Positions 54,859 through 63,619 of a stretch of 64,000 bases of DNA are shown here, piece after piece (position 1 is the stretch's first letter; each line of letters starts with the position of its first letter). The position numbers were made by a program, and so were the translations under genes. The DNA lies in contig NZ_CP053344.1 in assembly GCF_013113715.1 (NCBI RefSeq), positions 3,286,001-3,350,000 on the forward strand. Direction: 5' to 3'. Source of the DNA: Herbiconiux sp. SALV-R1 (GTDB taxonomy: Bacteria > Actinomycetota > Actinomycetes > Actinomycetales > Microbacteriaceae). The notes below the pieces were generated by a model. That model did no database searches. It was not told the DNA's origin and saw nothing but the letters and a program-made list of their open reading frames with translations.

Positions 54859-56355
54859 TCAGGCGGGGATGCCCGCCTGCTCGGGCGAGACGTCGGCGCC
54901 CGGGGCCGAGGGCTCGAGCGCTGCCGCGACGCGCTGCGAGAGCTCGGGATCGACCTTCGCCCAGTAGTCGAGCACGCGCACGCGCAGCTCGGGGATGGTG
55001 ACCTTCGAGACGTGGCCCGCGATGTTCTTCACCAGGCGCTCGCGCGCCGCGTCGTCGAGCACCTCGCGCACGAGGGTGCCGGCCTGGCCGAAGTCGTCGT
55101 CTTCGGCGTGCAGGGTAGCGGCGCTGCGCACGAGTGCGCCATCCGACTCCCAGCCGGAGTCGTCGCCGTGCTTGGCCGGGTCGGCGTGCGGGCCACCGAA
55201 GGAGTTCGGGGCGTACACCGGCTGCGACGCGTCTTTGAAGCCGAAGCGCATGGCGCCGTCTTTCGAGTAGCTGTTCTCGTGCAGCGGGGCGTTCACCGGC
55301 AGCTGGGCGTGGTTGGTGCCCACGCGGTAGCGGTGCGCATCCGCATAGCTGAAGATGCGGGCGAGCAGCATCTTGTCGGGGCTGGCCGCGATGCCGGGAA
55401 CGAAGTTCGAGGGGGCGAAAGTCGCCTGCTCGATCTGCGCGAAGTAGTTCTCGGGGTTGCGGTTGAGGGTCATGGTGCCGACCTCGATGAGGGGGTAGTC
55501 GCCGTGCGGCCAGACCTTCGTGAGATCGAACGGGTTGAACCGGTAGCCGGCAGCGTCGGCGTAGGGCATGACCTGCACCGAGAGGGTCCAGGTGGGGAAG
55601 TCGCCGCGGTCGATGGCCTCGGAGAGGTCGCGGATGTGGAAGTCGGCGTCTTCACCGGCGATCTGGTCGGCGGCGGCCTGGGAGAGGATCTCGATGCCCT
55701 GGTTGGTCTTGAAGTGGTACTTCACCCAGAACTTCTCGCCCGCGGCGTTGATCCACTGGTAGGTGTGCGAGCCGAAGCCGTCCATGTGGCGCCAGGAGGC
55801 GGGCAGGCCGCGGTCGCCCATCAGCCAGGTGACCTGGTGGGCCGATTCGGGCGAGAGGGTCCAGAAGTCCCACTGCATGTTGTGGTCGCGCAGGTGGCTG
55901 CCGGGCAGGCGCTTCTGCGAACGGATGAAGTCGGGGAACTTGATGCCGTCGCGGATGAAGAACACCGGGGTGTTGTTGCCGACGAGGTCGTAGTTGCCCT
56001 CGTCGGTGTAGAACTTCAGCGCGAAGCCGCGGGGGTCGCGCCAGGTGTCGGGCGAGCCCTGCTCGCCGGCGACGGTCGAGAAGCGGGCGAGCATGTCGAC
56101 CTTGGCGCCGGGCTGGAACAGCGACGCCCGGGTGTAGGCGCTCACGTCGCCGGTGGTCTCGAAGGTGCCGAACGCCCCGCCGCCCTTCGCGTGCACGACG
56201 CGCTCCGGAACCCGCTCGCGGTTGAACTGAGCGAGCTTCTCCACCAGGTAGTGGTCGTGGAGCACGACGGGGCCGTCGGCGCCGACGCTCTGCGAGTGGT
56301 CGTCGCTCGCGACGGGGGCTCCCGCGTTCGTGGTGGTGAAGTTCTGGTCGGTCAT
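54859..56355 (-). CDS. katA: clade-3-type monofunctional catalase KatA
   Basis: 498 residues from ATG 56355; the longer frame runs back through furA and was rejected. It decomposes hydrogen peroxide. Active-site His 55 is in [15 protein letters not shown], Asn in [13 protein letters not shown], and the heme-ligand Tyr in [40 protein letters not shown] is the catalase signature region. Length is that of small-subunit catalases. It sits 47 bp after furA on the same strand. Confidence 0.97.
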
Positions 56356-56402
56356 GTAGTCCTCGGTTCCGTCTGACGTGACGTGGTGTGTCGGATGGGT
56401 GT

Positions 56403-56825
56403 TCAGTGCTGCTGCGACTGGCAGGCGGGGCACAGGCCCCAGAAGGTGACCTCGGCGGTGTCGATGACGAAGCCGCCCGTCGACGACGGCGCGAGACAGG
56501 GCGCCGCCCCGTGAACGCACTCGACGTCGGCGACAGCTCCGCACGAGGTGCACACCACGTGGTGGTGGTTGTCACCGATGCGTCGCTCGTAGAGCGCCGG
56601 CGAGCCCGCGGGCTCGATGCGCCTGATGAGCCCCGCGTTCGCGAGCGCGTTCAGCACCACGTAGACCGCCTGCAGCGAGGTGCCCGGAAGCTCCCCCTGC
56701 ACCGAGCGGTGCACCGTGTCGGCATCGGAGTGCGGCGCGCGCTCGAGGGCGGTGAGCACCGCCAGCCGCTGGCCGGTAACCCGCAGCCCCGCATCACGGA
56801 TGCGCGTCTCCAGGTCGGTGGCCAT
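56403..56825 (-). CDS. furA: Fur-family regulator FurA/CatR type
   Basis: 140 residues. Winged helix [33 protein letters not shown] (10-42); ferric-uptake metal motif [10 protein letters not shown] with C92/C95, and C132/C135 in GLCPACQ, a complete structural-zinc set. Position directly before katA is the classic peroxide-sensing FurA/CatR arrangement of actinobacteria. A 41-bp perfect palindrome begins 8 bp upstream of its start and is the obvious autoregulatory operator. Confidence 0.95.
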
Positions 56826-56833
56826 GAGACGAC

Positions 56834-56874
56834 GATACCCCCTAATTATGAACGGTTCATAATTAGGGGGTATC
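56834..56874. promoter_or_regulatory. 41-bp perfect palindrome, FurA operator candidate
   Basis: GATACCCCCTAATTATGAAC (56834-56853), one central G, then its exact reverse complement (56855-56874). The AT-rich core TTATGAAC-G-GTTCATAA has the odd-centred layout of Fur/PerR boxes, and CATAAT on the minus strand can be the furA -10. It lies just upstream of furA ATG 56825. Confidence 0.85.
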
Positions 56875-56890
56875 GCTCAGGTGGACGTCA

Positions 56891-56909
56891 GGTGCCCCTC
56901 AGGGGCGCC
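56891..56909. terminator. hairpin terminator after the nucleotidase gene
   Basis: GGTGCCCC-TCA-GGGGCGCC (one mismatch) lies 4 bp after the nucleotidase stop on the minus strand and before the furA palindrome. Confidence 0.6.
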
Positions 56910-56913
56910 CGGG

Positions 56914-59826
56914 TCAGCCCGCAGCGCAGGCGGTGAGCTCAGCCACCGCCGGCGAGAGGGTGAGGTCGCCACCGAGCAGGGTGACCTGCGTGGCCCCCAG
57001 CGCGGTGATCTGCGCGAGCGTGTCGGCCGGCACGCAGGTGCCCGGCACGGTGAACAACGGCGCGTCGACCTTCGGTGCGAGACCCGAGCCCGACAGGGCG
57101 TCGGGGAAGCTCTCACCGGTGGCGAGGAACACGCGGTTCGCGCTCTCGAAGAAGTGACCGTTGATGAGGCGCGACGACTCGTAGCGGTCGACGCCGCCGA
57201 GACGCACGGCCTTCGTGATCGCGCCGACCTCGCCGAAGATGCCCTTCGAGACCGACTTCTCGCCGCCCACCACCGAGATCTCGGCGGAGTCGAGGCCCTT
57301 CAGCAGAGCCTCGGTGGCGTCGTTTAGCGAGCCCGCGGTGCCGTTGACGAGAACCACGGGGCCCTCGCCGTCGATCGCCGCACCCGCCGACAGTGCGTCG
57401 GCAAAGTTGGCGCCGGCGGCCACGACGGCGACCGGTGCACCCGAGGGGAACGCGGTCTCCGCGACCTTGCGCGAGGTCTCGAAGCGGTCGGCTCCGTCGA
57501 TGCGGGTGACGTCGGCGAGGCCTGCAAGCTGCTCCTCGACCCCGGCCGAGACCGAGTTCGGACCACCGACGATGACGACGTTCTCGGGCGCCAGGCGCTC
57601 GATCTCGGCGGCGACGTCGGCGGGGAGCGCAGCGGCTGCGGTCAGCAGGATGGGCGCGTCGGCCTGGGCGGCGGCCGGAGCTGCCGACAGGGCGTCGGGG
57701 TAGGTCTCGCCGGAGGCCACGTAGACCGTCGCTGCACCTCCCGGGAAGCCGGCCTGCGAGGCGGCGACCGAGGTGGCGTAGCGGTTCTCGCCCGAGATGC
57801 GGTCGGTCGACGGCAGGCCGTCGGGCACCCGCACGGGGATGCGCACCACGGTGCCGCTCGGCTGAGCGGTGACCACGAGCTCGCTGGCGACGTGGGCGTC
57901 GGCGGGGACCTCGACGGTCAGGGTGGCGGAGCCGTCGGTCACCGCGGCGGGCTCGAAGGTGGCCGCGGAGCCCTCCCACGAGATCTCGAGCGAGGTGTTC
58001 TTCGGGCTGCCGAGCGACGTGAGGTCGAGGTTCGACACAGTGGCCGAGACGTCGGCCCCGATGACCGCCTCACCGGTCACCCCGGTGACCTCGGCCGCGT
58101 GACGGGCGAAGTCGGGGGTGAGGTTCGGGTTGGCCTCGAGGTAGGCGATCCAGGCGTCACGGTCGATCAGACCCGAGTCGCGGGTGTCGGTGCCGTTGGC
58201 GAACTCGCGGAAGTTGTCGCCTCCCTGCAGCAGGAAGTTGAACGAACCGATGCGGTAGCTCGCGGCGGGGTCGATCGGCGCACCGTCGATCCAGATGCCG
58301 GTGACGTGCTCGCCCTGGGCGGCAGCGCCGTCGTAGGTGTACTCGACGTTGTCGGAGAGACCGAGCTTCAGGAACGGACGCGACGGGATGGTGCCGTCGG
58401 GGTTGGTCTGCCACTGCTGCTCGAGAACGGTCTTGAACTGGGCGCCGGTGAGCGTCGTGGTCCAGAGGTTGTTCACGAACGGCAGCACCGCGTTCGCCTC
58501 GGCGTAGGTGATGACGCCGTCGTCGCCCTTGAGGAGCTCGGCGCGGAGGCCGCCCGGGTTCACGACACCGATGGTGGCGCCGCCGCGCTCGGGCGAGCCG
58601 AGCGAGGAGACCAGCGAGTCGGCGACCAGGTTGCCGAGGGTCGACTCCGAGGCGCGGTCGTCACGGCTGCCGCCGGTGTAGACGCCGTCGACGTAGGAGC
58701 CGCCGGCGAAGGCGGTCGTGATGTCGGCGGTGACCGAGCCCTTCGGCTGGTTGCCGATGACGGCGGCCTCGGCGAGGGCGGCGTCGGTGATGGTCTTCAC
58801 CTCGGCGACCCGCGGGTACGCGGCGACCAGGGCCGCGTCGTCGTCTCCGGTGCGCGCCACGTTCGCGGCGGTGTACGACGACACCGCCTTGGTGGTGGGG
58901 TCGACGGTGAGCACGACGTTGCCGATGTTCTCGCCGTACGAACCGGTCTGCACGACCGGGCGGGTCTTGCCCGCCTCGCCGGGCACCGGGCCGTCCCACG
59001 CGTACTGCTTGTGGGTGTGGCCGGTGAAGATCACGTCGACTGCCGCATCGGTCTTGGTGACGATGTCGGTGAAGGCGTTGTCGAGCTCGAGCTCGTCTTC
59101 GAGGCTGGCGCCGTCGGGCGTGCCCGCGCTCGCACCCTCGTGGTAGCTGGCGACGATGACGTCGGCCTCTCCGTTCGACTCGTCGCCGTCGGTGAGCTGA
59201 GCCGCGACGCGGTTGACGGCCTCGACCGGGTCTCCGAAGTCGAGGTCGGCGATGCCGCCGGGCGAGACCAGCGTGGGGGTCTCCTGCGTGATGGCGCCGA
59301 TGACGCCGATGCGCAGACCCTGCACCTCCTGGATGGAGTACTCGTCGAGGGCGGGGGTGGTCGTGCCCTTCTCGTAGACGTTCGCACCGAGGTAGTCCCA
59401 CTGCGCGTTGCGCGAACCGTCGGCACCGATGATGCGATCGGTGAGGTCGGCGTAGCCCTGGTCGAACTCGTGGTTACCCACCGCGCTGGTGGCGAGGTCG
59501 AGCGCGTTCAGCACGTCGATGGTGGGCTGGTCGTTCGAGACGCTCGAGGCGAACAGCGAGGCACCGACGTTGTCGCCGGACGAGACGAACAGCGAGTTCT
59601 CCTCGCCGTACTGCTCGCGCAGCTTCTCGATGGTTCCGGCGAACTTGACGGTGTTCGCGTCGATCCGGCCGTGGAAGTCGTTGATGTCGATGAGGCTGAT
59701 CTGGACGGGGTCGCCGGGGGCGGCCGATGCCGACGACGCGACCCCGATGAGGGGCGCCGCCATCAGCGCACCTCCGAGGACGGTCGCGAGTGCCGCCTTG
59801 AGCGGCCTCGACGCGGTGTGGGACAT
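56914..59826 (-). CDS. secreted 5'-nucleotidase with triple cell-wall-binding-2 repeats
   Basis: 970 residues from ATG 59826 (GAGGAG upstream). Signal peptide 1-36 ending ASSASA. Metallophosphoesterase domain (about 40-330): DINDFHGRID, SSGDNVGAS, GNHEFDQGY, GHTHKQYAW. 5'-nucleotidase C domain (about 360-560): GNLVADSL, VNPGGLRAEL, LLQGGDNFREF. Beta-rich spacer, then three CW_binding_2 repeats (about 680-970) with DRISGENRYATS, DRFETSRKVAE and DRYESSRLI. It hydrolyses extracellular nucleotides at the cell surface for phosphate or nucleoside salvage. It follows the nuclease gene by 63 bp, probably in one operon. Confidence 0.95.
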   Translation of the reverse strand: MSHTASRPLKAALATVLGGALMAAPLIGVASSASAAPGDPVQISLIDINDFHGRIDANTVKFAGTIEKLREQYGEENSLFVSSGDNVGASLFASSVSNDQPTIDVLNALDLATSAVGNHEFDQGYADLTDRIIGADGSRNAQWDYLGANVYEKGTTTPALDEYSIQEVQGLRIGVIGAITQETPTLVSPGGIADLDFGDPVEAVNRVAAQLTDGDESNGEADVIVASYHEGASAGTPDGASLEDELELDNAFTDIVTKTDAAVDVIFTGHTHKQYAWDGPVPGEAGKTRPVVQTGSYGENIGNVVLTVDPTTKAVSSYTAANVARTGDDDAALVAAYPRVAEVKTITDAALAEAAVIGNQPKGSVTADITTAFAGGSYVDGVYTGGSRDDRASESTLGNLVADSLVSSLGSPERGGATIGVVNPGGLRAELLKGDDGVITYAEANAVLPFVNNLWTTTLTGAQFKTVLEQQWQTNPDGTIPSRPFLKLGLSDNVEYTYDGAAAQGEHVTGIWIDGAPIDPAASYRIGSFNFLLQGGDNFREFANGTDTRDSGLIDRDAWIAYLEANPNLTPDFARHAAEVTGVTGEAVIGADVSATVSNLDLTSLGSPKNTSLEISWEGSAATFEPAAVTDGSATLTVEVPADAHVASELVVTAQPSGTVVRIPVRVPDGLPSTDRISGENRYATSVAASQAGFPGGAATVYVASGETYPDALSAAPAAAQADAPILLTAAAALPADVAAEIERLAPENVVIVGGPNSVSAGVEEQLAGLADVTRIDGADRFETSRKVAETAFPSGAPVAVVAAGANFADALSAGAAIDGEGPVVLVNGTAGSLNDATEALLKGLDSAEISVVGGEKSVSKGIFGEVGAITKAVRLGGVDRYESSRLINGHFFESANRVFLATGESFPDALSGSGLAPKVDAPLFTVPGTCVPADTLAQITALGATQVTLLGGDLTLSPAVAELTACAAG

Positions 59827-59889: not shown

Positions 59890-62800
59890 TCACCCGGCCG
59901 CGCAGGCGGTGAGCTCGGCCACCGCCGGCGAGAGGGTGTTCTCGCCGCCGAGAAGGGTCACCTGGCCGGCACCGAGGGCGTCGATCTGCGCGAGCGTCTC
60001 GGCGGGCACGCAGTCGCCGGGCACCGTGAACAGGGGCGCGTCGAGCTTCGGAGCGAGCCCGGAGCCCGACAGGGCGTCGGGGAAGCCGACTCCGGTGGCG
60101 AGCACGACCCGGTCGGCCGAGGTGAAGAAGTGGGCGTTGATGAGACGCGACGACTCGTAGCGGTCGACACCTCCGAGTCGTACGGTCTCGGCGATGGTGC
60201 CGAGCTGGGTGACGATGCCGGCCGAGACCGACTTCTCCCCACCCGCCACGGCGATCTCGTCGAGCCCGAGCTCCTCGATCAGCGCGGCCGAGGCCGCGTC
60301 GAGCGAGTTCGCCCTGCCGTCGACCAGCACCACCGGGCCTGCTCCGTCGATGGCGGCACCGGCCGACAGCGCGTCGGCGAAGTTCGCCCCGGCCGCGACG
60401 ACGGCCTGAGCGGCGCCCTCGGGGAAGGCGGACTCGGCGACGAGGCGCGACGTCTCGTAGCGGTCGGCCCCCTGGATGCGGGAGACCGGGGCGATCTGGC
60501 CGAGTGCTGTCTGAACAGCAGCGGACACCGAGTTCACGCCGCCCACGACGACGATGCTCTCGGGGTCGAGGCGCTCCACCTCGGCGGCGACCCCCGGCGG
60601 CAGCTGCCCCTGCTGCGTCAGCAGGATGGGCGCGTCGGCCCGCGCGGCGGCGGGCGAGGCCGACAGCGCGTCGGGGAACACCTCGCCCGAGACCACGTAG
60701 ACCGTCTCCGCGCCCTCGGGGAAGCCCTCGAGCGAGGCCTCCACCGAGGTGGCGTAGCGGTCGGCGCCTGCGACGCGGTCGGTGACCGGCTCGACGGGCT
60801 CGTCGCCGACGGAGTAGCCGACGATGACCGGGTCGTGGTCGCTCGAGCGGAACACGCTCTCGTCGTAGAAGTCGGTGGCGTTGTAGTTGAAGCGGCTGTA
60901 CTCCTTCGCGATGGACTCGCCGGAGTTGATGTTCCAGATGTCGACCCCGGTCACCTTCGCGTCGGCCGCGGCGGAGGCGAAGATGTGGTCGAGCGAACCG
61001 CTCTGGCCGCTGAACGAGTAGCTGTACTCGCCGGTCTTCCCGCCCTGGTCGACGTAGCCCGCGTCGGTGATGACCTTCACCGGGTCTTCCTGCGAGTAGG
61101 CGTTGAAGTCACCGATGAGGAACACCTCGTCGGTGCCGAGCTCGCTCTGCAGCGATGCCGAGAACTCGACGAGGGCGCTCGCCTGAGCGACGCGCGAGGC
61201 GTTCGAGCCGCCCTGGCCGTCGCCCTGGTCGGCATCGGCACCGCTGCCCGACCCCTTCGACTTGAAGTGGTTCACGATGGCGATGAAGGCGTCGTCGTCG
61301 CTCCCGCCCGCGGGGATGAACTCCTGGGCGAGCGGCTGCCTGGCGTTGGAGAAGGCGTCGTCGAGCAGCACCCGCGATGTGCCGACGGGCTCCACGGCGG
61401 CCTCCTTGTAGATGAAGGCCGTGCGGATGACGTCTTGAGCGGCGAGCGTGGGCAGCTGGTCGGCTGCCGGTGAGGGCACGAACTCCCACTGCTCCGCCGG
61501 AGCGAGGCCCTCGTTGAGGGCATCGACCAGGGTGGAGAGGGCCTCGTCGCGGTCTTTGCCGAACTTCACCGAGTTCTCGATCTCTTCGAGCGAGACGACG
61601 TCGGCACCGAGGCCGTTGATGGCCGCGACGATCTTCGCCTGCTGGCGCTCAAGGTCATCGGCCTCCGCCGCGCCGCGTGCGTCGCAGCCCTCGTCGACGG
61701 TGACGTTGTTGCCGTCGCGATCGGTGTAGAAGGTGCAGCCGGTGAGCTGGTCGCCCGTGGTGGTGAAGTAGTTCAGCACGTTGAACCCGGCGATGACGAT
61801 GTCGCCGCCGACCTCCTCGGGAGCCTGGGGCTGCACGTCGCTGAACGTCGCCGGCAGTGTGCCCCCGGCCACGAGCTGGGTGGTGGGCTGGAACTTCCAG
61901 GTGTTGTTTCGGTAGTCGAAGATGACCGGCGAGGTGAAGCTCACCGCGGAGCCGACCGTGATCGACCGGTCGTCGGTGAGGTAGGGCAGGGGCAGCGCCT
62001 GATTCTCGGCCGAACCCAGGAAGTTGATGCTCGCACCGTCGTCGAGGGTCACGGCGCGGGCGGCGTTCTCGGCCACGGCGGCGGTGTACTCGGGGGTGCC
62101 GGGGCGGGCGATCTCGGTGGGGGTGATGAGCGGGGTGCTACCGGAGGCGAGGCCGATCTCGGCGTACTGGTTGGTGGAGTAGGTGTTGCTCACCGTGAAC
62201 TGGCCCTGGGGCGCCAGGAGCATGCCTTCGAGCGACTCGCGCTGCGCCTCCTCCCGCGGGAGCTCGATCGTCGCCGGGACGACGGGGTCGGCCGCGTCGA
62301 GCAGCTTCTCGAGCCCGTCGGCCGAACCGACCACGAACTCGGTCAGCCCGTTGAACTCCTCGATGTGGCCGGTGACCTTGACCAGGTCGCCCACGGCGAC
62401 CGAGCCGACCGTCGACTCCGAGTAGACGAAGATGGCGTCGGAGGCGGTGTGGGTGGCGAGGTCGATCGCTCCGCCGGTGCCGGGAGTCTGGATGTAGTAA
62501 CCCTTGAACCCTCCGGTGGGGTACGCGGCGGTCACCACGCCGGTCGTGGTGACCGGGGGCTTCTCGGGGGTCGCGAACGGCGACGCGTCGCCGGTGCCCT
62601 GGAGCTCGGCGATGGTGTGCTCGGTGGGCTCGCCGGGTTCTTCGGGCTCCTCCGGCTCGACCGGGCCCGTGCCGGCGGCGTTCTGCGGCGTGACCGTGCC
62701 GGTGGAGACGAAGTCGGCGGAGTTGTCGTCGGTGTCGGCGAACCCGGTGCGGGCGAGCGAGTTGGGAACGGAGTTGCCTCCGTCGACCGTGGCGGCCAGC

Positions 62801-63330
62801 GTCTCGAAGGTGTTCGAGCTGCCATAGCCGACGAGGTCGACGATGCCGTCGGTCTCGGTGACGGAGCCGGGCGCCGGCGCCAGGGGCTCTGCGACGTCGG
62901 CGAGAATGAGCGTGCCGTTGGTGCCCGAAGGCGTGATGGCCGACCCCAGGTCGAGGTCGGGCGCGGGGAGCGCAGAGCCGGTCGCCCCGTTGCCCTGCAC
63001 GGCCACGAGGAAGTAGCCGCCGGCCGCGATCGAGCCGCTGAGCAGCCCGACGCCGTTGACGGCTCCCTCACCGCCCGCCGAGCGGTACTGCAGCGACCAC
63101 CCGTCGAGCGAGACGGCGGAGGTGCCGGGGTTGTAGAGCTCGACGAACTTCGAGCTGAAGGGGGCTCCGGCGCTGCCGCCCTTGAGGTAGGCCTCGTTGA
63201 TGACGACGCCCGTGCCGTCGACCGAGGCCTGGGCCGACGAGGCGACTCCGACGAGGGGTGCCGCGAGCACGGCTCCGGTGGCGATCGTGGTGAGTGCCGC
63301 CCGGAGCGACCTCGTGGACTTCTGCGTCAT
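59890..63330 (-). CDS. secreted ExeM/NucH-like nuclease with lamin-tail domain and triple cell-wall-binding-2 repeats
   Basis: 1146 residues from ATG 63330 (GAGGAGATCC upstream). Signal peptide about 1-36. Lamin-tail domain (about 38-215: VVINEAYLKGGSAGAPFSSKFVELYNPG), an acidic Pro/Glu linker, an OB-like region, then an endonuclease/exonuclease/phosphatase domain (about 520-845: AGFNVLNYF, SLEEIENS, VNHFKSKGS, IGDFNAYSQEDP, SLDHIF, SSDHDPVIV). Three CW_binding_2 repeats close the protein. It is a cell-wall-anchored DNase able to feed nucleotides to the following nucleotidase. The longer N-terminal reading frame lacks a signal and was not used. Confidence 0.95.
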   Translation of the reverse strand: MTQKSTRSLRAALTTIATGAVLAAPLVGVASSAQASVDGTGVVINEAYLKGGSAGAPFSSKFVELYNPGTSAVSLDGWSLQYRSAGGEGAVNGVGLLSGSIAAGGYFLVAVQGNGATGSALPAPDLDLGSAITPSGTNGTLILADVAEPLAPAPGSVTETDGIVDLVGYGSSNTFETLAATVDGGNSVPNSLARTGFADTDDNSADFVSTGTVTPQNAAGTGPVEPEEPEEPGEPTEHTIAELQGTGDASPFATPEKPPVTTTGVVTAAYPTGGFKGYYIQTPGTGGAIDLATHTASDAIFVYSESTVGSVAVGDLVKVTGHIEEFNGLTEFVVGSADGLEKLLDAADPVVPATIELPREEAQRESLEGMLLAPQGQFTVSNTYSTNQYAEIGLASGSTPLITPTEIARPGTPEYTAAVAENAARAVTLDDGASINFLGSAENQALPLPYLTDDRSITVGSAVSFTSPVIFDYRNNTWKFQPTTQLVAGGTLPATFSDVQPQAPEEVGGDIVIAGFNVLNYFTTTGDQLTGCTFYTDRDGNNVTVDEGCDARGAAEADDLERQQAKIVAAINGLGADVVSLEEIENSVKFGKDRDEALSTLVDALNEGLAPAEQWEFVPSPAADQLPTLAAQDVIRTAFIYKEAAVEPVGTSRVLLDDAFSNARQPLAQEFIPAGGSDDDAFIAIVNHFKSKGSGSGADADQGDGQGGSNASRVAQASALVEFSASLQSELGTDEVFLIGDFNAYSQEDPVKVITDAGYVDQGGKTGEYSYSFSGQSGSLDHIFASAAADAKVTGVDIWNINSGESIAKEYSRFNYNATDFYDESVFRSSDHDPVIVGYSVGDEPVEPVTDRVAGADRYATSVEASLEGFPEGAETVYVVSGEVFPDALSASPAAARADAPILLTQQGQLPPGVAAEVERLDPESIVVVGGVNSVSAAVQTALGQIAPVSRIQGADRYETSRLVAESAFPEGAAQAVVAAGANFADALSAGAAIDGAGPVVLVDGRANSLDAASAALIEELGLDEIAVAGGEKSVSAGIVTQLGTIAETVRLGGVDRYESSRLINAHFFTSADRVVLATGVGFPDALSGSGLAPKLDAPLFTVPGDCVPAETLAQIDALGAGQVTLLGGENTLSPAVAELTACAAG

Positions 63331-63619
63331 GGATCTCCTCAGACGGTTCACACGGATTCGGCCATCGTAGGGACCCGAAGTAACGAAAGGCGAGCTACAC
63401 GTTTCTATTAGGTAAATTAAGTGAAACTGATAGAACGTCACCCCCTCGGGGGACAAAAGGCTAACCGAGCGATCGGCAGGAACGCAAGCACCGACTCAGT
63501 AATTCTCGGTAGTCCAGGAATTGAGTAGCGTGGGGGGGAGATCCAATCCGACGCCCGTGTCGAAGCCCTCGGTAGTGTGGAGTCAGCTTTGTTGGGGAGG
63601 CTCGAGATGCCGGGTGACG
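63331..63619. other. divergent promoter region, AT-richer than the surroundings
   Basis: 289 bp between the nuclease start and the plus-strand ATPase. The stretch 63395-63435 (TTTCTATTAGGTAAATTAAG, then TGAAACTGATAG) is unusually AT-rich and probably holds the minus-strand promoter of the nuclease-nucleotidase operon. GGGGAGG lies at 63593-63599 before the next gene. Nothing else recognisable. Confidence 0.45.

Follow-up and report, generated by a model that had tools for sequence, protein, structure and literature searches.

The window analysed here, a 64-kb stretch of Herbiconiux DNA, carries on its reverse strand, one after the other, a gene for a 970-residue protein, a spacer holding a long palindrome, furA and katA. 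The furA gene (56403-56825) encodes a Fur-family regulator of 140 amino acids (Pfam FUR, E 1.3e-20), whose transcription probably starts at or next to its ATG, while katA (54859-56355) encodes a monofunctional catalase (PF00199, E 3.3e-186). These Pfam matches bear out the neighbours named by the original prediction, namely a Fur-family gene and then a catalase gene on the reverse strand. The solved structures closest to FurA by sequence comparison are PerR proteins (2fe3, 4i7h), and the protein does not reach the NCBIfam PerR cut-offs (71.2 of 180 bits). Within the clade of related furA-katA operons, FurA is 73-96% identical to that of the window, and its differences extend to the helix region that follows the SLQA motif. 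The upstream gene (56914-59826, reverse strand) was named by inspection as 5'-nucleotidase-like with cell-wall-binding repeats. It lies next to another gene on the same strand (59890-63456) for a large, secreted-looking protein with a similar cell-wall-binding-repeat end, and both end in PAVAELTACAAG; to judge from their sequences, the two form a tandem pair of related surface enzymes.

The palindrome occupies 56833-56875 and is centred on 56854. It had been announced as a perfect palindrome of 41 bp, and it does exist, but at a length of 43 bp, with one more pair on each side: its arms (56833-56853 and 56855-56875) are 21 nt each, 100% complementary and separated by a 1-nt spacer. It starts 38 bp past the stop of the upstream gene, within the 88-bp spacer between that gene and furA, and thus lies directly upstream of a furA that heads a catalase operon, the position of a FurA box. 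An inverted-repeat search with loops of up to 8 nt finds it to be the longest perfect palindrome of the window, the runner-up having arms of 12 nt, and the longest arm expected by chance is 9-13 nt (first-order Markov simulations, 20 runs of 64 kb each). Sampling 400 kb of this genome gave 21 palindromes with arms of at least 11 nt, the longest of which has 20-nt arms and a 7-nt loop. By a simple call of open reading frames, three of the ten longest in this sample fall between convergent gene ends, two in divergent gaps, two in same-direction gaps and three inside frames; G+C is at least 70% in six of the ten, and one, at 0.42, matches the furA palindrome (0.44) in AT-richness. In other words, long perfect hairpins are neither rare in this genome nor unique to the furA site, and what sets the furA palindrome apart is how long it is for a one-base centre, together with its position on a promoter. 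Elsewhere in the same genome, at L225:4249-4286, an inverted repeat with 16-nt arms consists of a pair of TGTGA-N4-TCACA boxes, close to where two frames, apparently divergent, begin; we take it to resemble a CRP-type site, except that its spacer is shorter.

The core and the promoter

The central 23 bp of the palindrome (56843-56865; sense TAATTATGAACCGTTCATAATTA) can be read as a FurA box on the strength of an alignment of the clade, base frequencies at 96 furA loci and likeness to the mycobacterial box. In the window this core reads ATGA-N5-TCAT and aligns with the TTGA-N5-TC of its relatives, the pattern of a FurA box. It overlaps a putative -35 element, ATGAAC (56855-56860, reverse strand), recognised by direct reading and from the alignments, in which its counterpart in many relatives is TTGAAT or TTGACT. 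This element stands 17 nt before a putative -10, TATCGT (56832-56837, reverse strand), which reaches one base past the palindrome and ends 6 nt before the ATG of furA. In the alignment of the 12-member clade 12 columns are invariant, and every one of them lies inside the core. Across the 96 distinct furA loci, aligned on their centres, A/T-rich half-sites extend to a distance of about d = 11 from the centre, where four fixed core bases (T-5, G-4, T+3, C+4) are imposed by the rule that chooses the centre and the rule itself favours AT-rich, symmetric places. These loci are what is left of 132 once those with no centre, with a centre more than 60 nt from the start or with identical sequence are removed; the rule gives no centre in 25 of 172 loci (20/110, 3/22 and 2/40). 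A TANNNT motif occurs at d = 13-20 in 55 of the 96 loci and is absent from the other 41, and an equal window on the upstream side has it in 0/96. The start codon follows TANNNT by 6-7 nt in 48 of the 55, and a Shine-Dalgarno-like motif was found in none of 54 furA loci.

This anatomy resembles that of mycobacteria. Namely, the available part of PMC2443159 describes a FurA box of 23 bp that is AT-rich, lies over the furA promoter and is autoregulatory, and the accessible text of PMC2358910 places the 5' end of the M. tuberculosis furA mRNA at the initiation codon. A leaderless start is nonetheless not universal, given that the former source, in the same part, reports mapped starts of M. fortuitum furAII 28 and 40 nt upstream of the start codon, that 41 of our 96 loci have no TANNNT, and that a promoter consensus scan of 56780-56980 called no promoter here. 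Taken together, homology and anatomy lead us to predict with high confidence that the core is a FurA operator over a leaderless promoter. Metal-bound FurA would bind the 23-bp core over the -35 and thereby block RNA polymerase, peroxide would release it, and the furA-katA mRNA would begin at the furA ATG, as the anatomy and the mycobacterial system suggest. The location, the conserved core and the published mycobacterial box thus all support, as a predicted site, the proposed operator at an autoregulated furA-katA operon. As for a wider FurA regulon in the same genome, the core pattern is exact at one place and is matched with two mismatches at six more, against two for a reversed control, for which reason we claim none.

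A further motif, GACAC, is found 45-11 bp before the centre in 21 of 113 furA loci (genome copies kept), and by comparison in 23 of 858 windows of the same 35-nt length taken further upstream. It stands mostly 31-20 bp before the palindrome centre, for example on the sense strand of L010 and L011, is absent in the window, and may be an activator site or an upstream promoter element of furA.

Distribution and divergence of the outer arms

Outside the core, the palindrome consists of two outer arms of 10 bp. The promoter-side arm (56833-56842, reverse strand; sense GGGGGTATCG) bears most of the -10 and is the presumed donor in the account given below; the upstream arm (56866-56875, reverse strand; sense CGATACCCCC) is its exact mirror and the presumed recipient. 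At the cut-off used, furA was found in 15 of 16 genomes of the genus. The outer mirror, taken at d = 13-21, pairs at 8-9 of nine positions in seven of these 15 loci (L001, L002, L004 and L009-L012), at five of nine in L014, and at 1-3 of nine in the other seven. L014 retains a mirrored CCGTA/TACGG at d = 16-20. A Herbiconiux metagenome-assembled genome at 80% identity (L031) was dropped, its furA upstream stretch being the same as that of L008. Outside the genus, the full outer mirror was seen in 0/74 (at most 6 pairs), 0/19 (at most 4) and 0/38 (at most 5) loci with a centre, that is, in 0/131, a count that includes a few centres so distant from the start that they may be wrong, and some genomes represented twice because they stand in two collections. 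In L003 one base is deleted and one side is changed, which leaves a quasi-palindrome; the upstream flank of this locus (CCTGAGCGATACC) and its promoter arm (GGGGGTATCG) match those of L001 and L002. The original prediction had been staked on conservation reaching beyond a core of 15-19 bp, and our result comes close to refuting it: sequence conservation extends over about 23 bp, and the 20 bp outside them keep no more than their symmetry, in part of one genus.

How the mirror differs from its absence can be followed within the furA-katA clade of 12 members by comparing the palindromic loci L004 and L009-L012 with the non-palindromic loci L005-L008. On the promoter side the two sets are similar: the outer arms of L005-L008 read GCCGCTACGG, CGGACTAGCG, GCGGCTACGG and GCCGCTAGGG, respectively, and L004 and L010-L012 also read GCGGCTACGG. 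On the upstream side L005-L008 read GGATGCGCTC, GGCGGCGCAC, GGAAGCGCTC and GGATGCCTGA, respectively, and L004, L010 and L011 read CCGTAGCCGC. Summed over all comparisons between the sets, 153 of 200 positions differ in the upstream outer arm, about the level expected of unrelated sequence, against 42 of 200 in the promoter outer arm and 69 and 71 of 180 in the two flanks. Differences within the palindromic set amount to 10/100 upstream and 4/100 on the promoter side, and within the non-palindromic set to 22/60 and 20/60. The pair L007 and L010 illustrates this best. Their promoter outer arms are identical (0/10), their upstream outer arms differ at 8 of 10 positions, and the remaining parts have changed little (1/9 in the left flank beyond the upstream arm, 1/10 in the left core, 3/9 in the right flank). 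Changes are thus clustered in one arm and match the opposite arm, with the left flank little altered, as expected of a template switch. Since the promoter arm and the left flank are shared and the upstream arm is not, these alignments make it most likely that a block was exchanged on one side. What is more, relatives outside the genus are non-palindromic and the core of L006 is outgroup-like (CTTATTATGAAT), so that the mirror is most simply read from these sequences as the derived state.

The two arms have also changed in step. Between L001/L002 and the palindromic set L004 and L009-L012, 46 of 100 upstream and 42 of 100 promoter outer positions differ (44% overall), and still 132 of the 133 cells at d = 2-20 in the seven palindromes are Watson-Crick pairs, with no G-T and with L004 at d2 as the one exception; five further mismatches fall at d1 and d21. 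Seven pair positions in d2-20 vary (d7, 11, 12, 13, 16, 19 and 20), always on both sides together, and four of these variable pairs are swaps between C-G and G-C, for which no G-U intermediate is possible. Over all 12 rows the covariation score comes to 0.223; shuffling gives a mean of 0.134 (none of 500 as high) and slid controls give 0.046-0.071, and nine pairs are altered on both sides, against 5.6 after shuffling (5/500), where both shuffles and slid controls leave relatedness in. Further pair types, at 14 against 12.8 (148/500), were the only one of five measures to be unexceptional. A left-versus-right arm permutation over the 12 members (p 0.00175) and an estimate from 1/(C(9,5)*3^5) were both set aside as evidence, as they ignore relatedness. 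Seven paired changes in seven related genomes amount to few independent events, and selection for symmetry would yield them too.

A protein that reads the outer arms would keep their sequence, unless the arms followed changes in FurA, so symmetry with free sequence points either to a structure or to copying from arm to arm. Between these two, copying is favoured by the one-sided block replacement and by the swaps that G-U pairs could not bridge.

Gene and species phylogenies

In a tree of rpoB and gyrB, midpoint-rooted for drawing only and with L008 represented in 47% of columns, one fully supported branch separates all the palindromic genomes from L003, L005-L008 and L013. L014 and L016 fall within the palindromic group, which for this reason does not form a strict clade (AU p 8.9e-08). 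The furA-katA tree has a weak backbone. Forcing a single palindromic clade costs 26 log units (AU p 0.128), and constraints uniting the palindromic genomes with L003, L005-L008 alone, or L005-L008 with L003 give p 0.12, 0.053 and 0.046, respectively. In short, one clade of palindromic furA-katA operons is neither rejected nor supported.

Gene tree and species tree disagree, as they would if lineages had exchanged furA-katA. To judge by the operator, the plainest case is L003 (genome G006), which has an operator and flank like those of L001 and L002 in a species on the opposite side of the rpoB and gyrB tree; its furA-katA region was possibly exchanged, and its grouping with L001 and L002 has 57/87 support. 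L014 and L016 (G002 and G003) carry a distant furA-katA operon with less than the full mirror and with a katA about 71% identical to that of the window, which suggests that their operon was replaced by transfer.

Discussion

We consider it probable, from the sequence comparisons above, that the symmetry of the outer arms arose by mirror-image copying of the promoter arm and that concerted evolution has since kept the two alike. Namely, replication across the quasi-palindromic core would switch template and copy the promoter arm onto the upstream side, and the same copying process, or weak selection, would hold the two arms identical as both change. The outer 10 bp on each side would then add no binding sequence, the promoter-side arm being there because it carries the -10. 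Replacement of a block on one side is what template switching predicts. Such switching at quasi-palindromes is a known type of bacterial mutation in E. coli, which makes quasi-palindromes more perfect, according to the part of PMC7202029 at hand. It has also been proposed to create and maintain hairpins, where the authors, in the available portion of PMC8794818, call the evidence for maintenance circumstantial.

Would a selected DNA or RNA structure explain the symmetry as well? Here the promoter would lie in a cruciform-capable stretch, and extrusion under supercoiling, or its blocking by FurA, would tune it. Retention of symmetry at free sequence and the AT-rich centre agree with this, as do the predicted folds of the 43-nt single-stranded DNA, which reach -20.3 to -23.8 kcal/mol in the seven palindromic loci, -13.9 in L003 and -4.1 to -7.0 in L005-L008. 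However, alignable furA loci outside the genus have no such mirror, our literature search showed no such case at a Fur-family promoter, and the four C-G/G-C swaps would be hard to attain stepwise, for which reasons we regard this reading as unlikely. Slightly less credence still goes to its more specific form, in which selection in one lineage of the genus keeps symmetry and not sequence, so that -35, operator and -10 sit in one cruciform-capable, foldable switch. If this were true, supercoiling or read-through transcription would compete with FurA for the same DNA and so set the peroxide response.

The palindrome could instead act in RNA, as a hairpin that ends the mRNA of the upstream gene and, as terminator or stabiliser, insulates furA from read-through. 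The RNA of 56820-56913 is indeed predicted to fold strongly (-53.1 kcal/mol, z -6.9), and three of the ten long hairpins in the genome sample lie between convergent gene ends. In all seven palindromic genomes, moreover, this gene is the immediate upstream neighbour and is read from the same strand, while a relative of it stands further upstream in L005, L007 and L008 and none was found within 1500 bp in L003 and L006. This association is weakened as a functional tie by the species tree, which puts the palindromic genomes, with L014 and L016, on one side of a single branch; it may be close to one shared event, and therefore lends a terminator or insulator only weak support. Against the hairpin stand also the absence of a T-run after the stem, as an intrinsic terminator would have, and of any terminator call, a separate GC-rich hairpin that follows the stop codon of the upstream gene in the window, and the lack of G-U among the outer pairs of the seven palindromes. 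We put little faith in such a hairpin. An Rfam search of 56300-57000 gave three weak matches, all below gathering (best, P37, 29.7 against 50 bits). The suggestion that the palindrome serves as a hairpin in the furA leader was rejected, given that it lies wholly upstream of the inferred start at the ATG, and any RNA copy of it would have to come from transcripts that run on out of the upstream gene.

More than one dimer can bind in the case of some Fur proteins, and the position and length of the palindrome speak for the operator proposed earlier, a long one on which two FurA dimers would sit side by side. FurA itself varies between species, and the outer arms could in principle follow it. Yet these arms differ between L001/L002 and the other palindromic species at nearly half of their positions, L003 has outer arms of the L001 type together with a FurA whose helix region resembles that of L004, inspection found no second motif resembling a FurA box in the outer arms, and mirrored outer arms are absent from four members of the clade and from other genera. 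The differing arm sequences and the missing mirror at other furA loci speak against two dimers, not absolutely, as FurA differs too, and we hold this reading to be quite improbable. Finally, a mirror-image divergent promoter, in which the copied arm would drive forward-strand transcription under FurA, was rejected as very improbable: the mirror does yield a second -35/-10-like pair, and L011 has a full TACGGT on both strands, but the sixth base of the mirror -10 (d22) is T in one of seven palindromic genomes, against seven of seven on the furA side, and the upstream gene runs in the direction of furA in all seven.

The locus offers a natural example of a regulatory site whose symmetry divides into a part with conserved sequence, as recognition by a protein would require, and a symmetric part whose sequence is free. 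It also warns that long palindromes need not be long binding sites, and it provides a bacterial promoter at which concerted evolution of arms, whether by mutation or by structural selection, is directly testable. A literature search that included Herbiconiux and furA, and whose coverage left most papers in subscription journals outside, found no description of this element.

Comparison with known systems

Among regulators of the PerR and CatR type, the likeness lies in the two CXXC motifs of FurA, whose peroxide sensing is putative. We take these motifs to be its structural zinc site. The parts of PMC5288332 available present CatR of Streptomyces coelicolor likewise as a Fur-family repressor paired with a catalase gene. 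Nearest in anatomy is the FurA box of the mycobacterial furA-katG locus, which, in the portions of PMC2443159 and PMC2358910 at our disposal, also stands before furA in a furA-catalase locus, spans about 23 bp, is AT-rich and has TTGA-N5-TC over the -35. The catalase here, however, is a monofunctional KatA and not KatG, the core is perfectly palindromic, and the symmetry continues into the -10, to 43 bp. As regards the outer arms, the likeness is to template-switch mutations at quasi-palindromes, in which, as far as the available text of PMC7202029 and PMC8794818 goes, a block of one arm changes so as to match the other arm exactly and the arms become more perfect. Unlike those measured mutations, what we describe is a pattern between species, at a bacterial operator-promoter.
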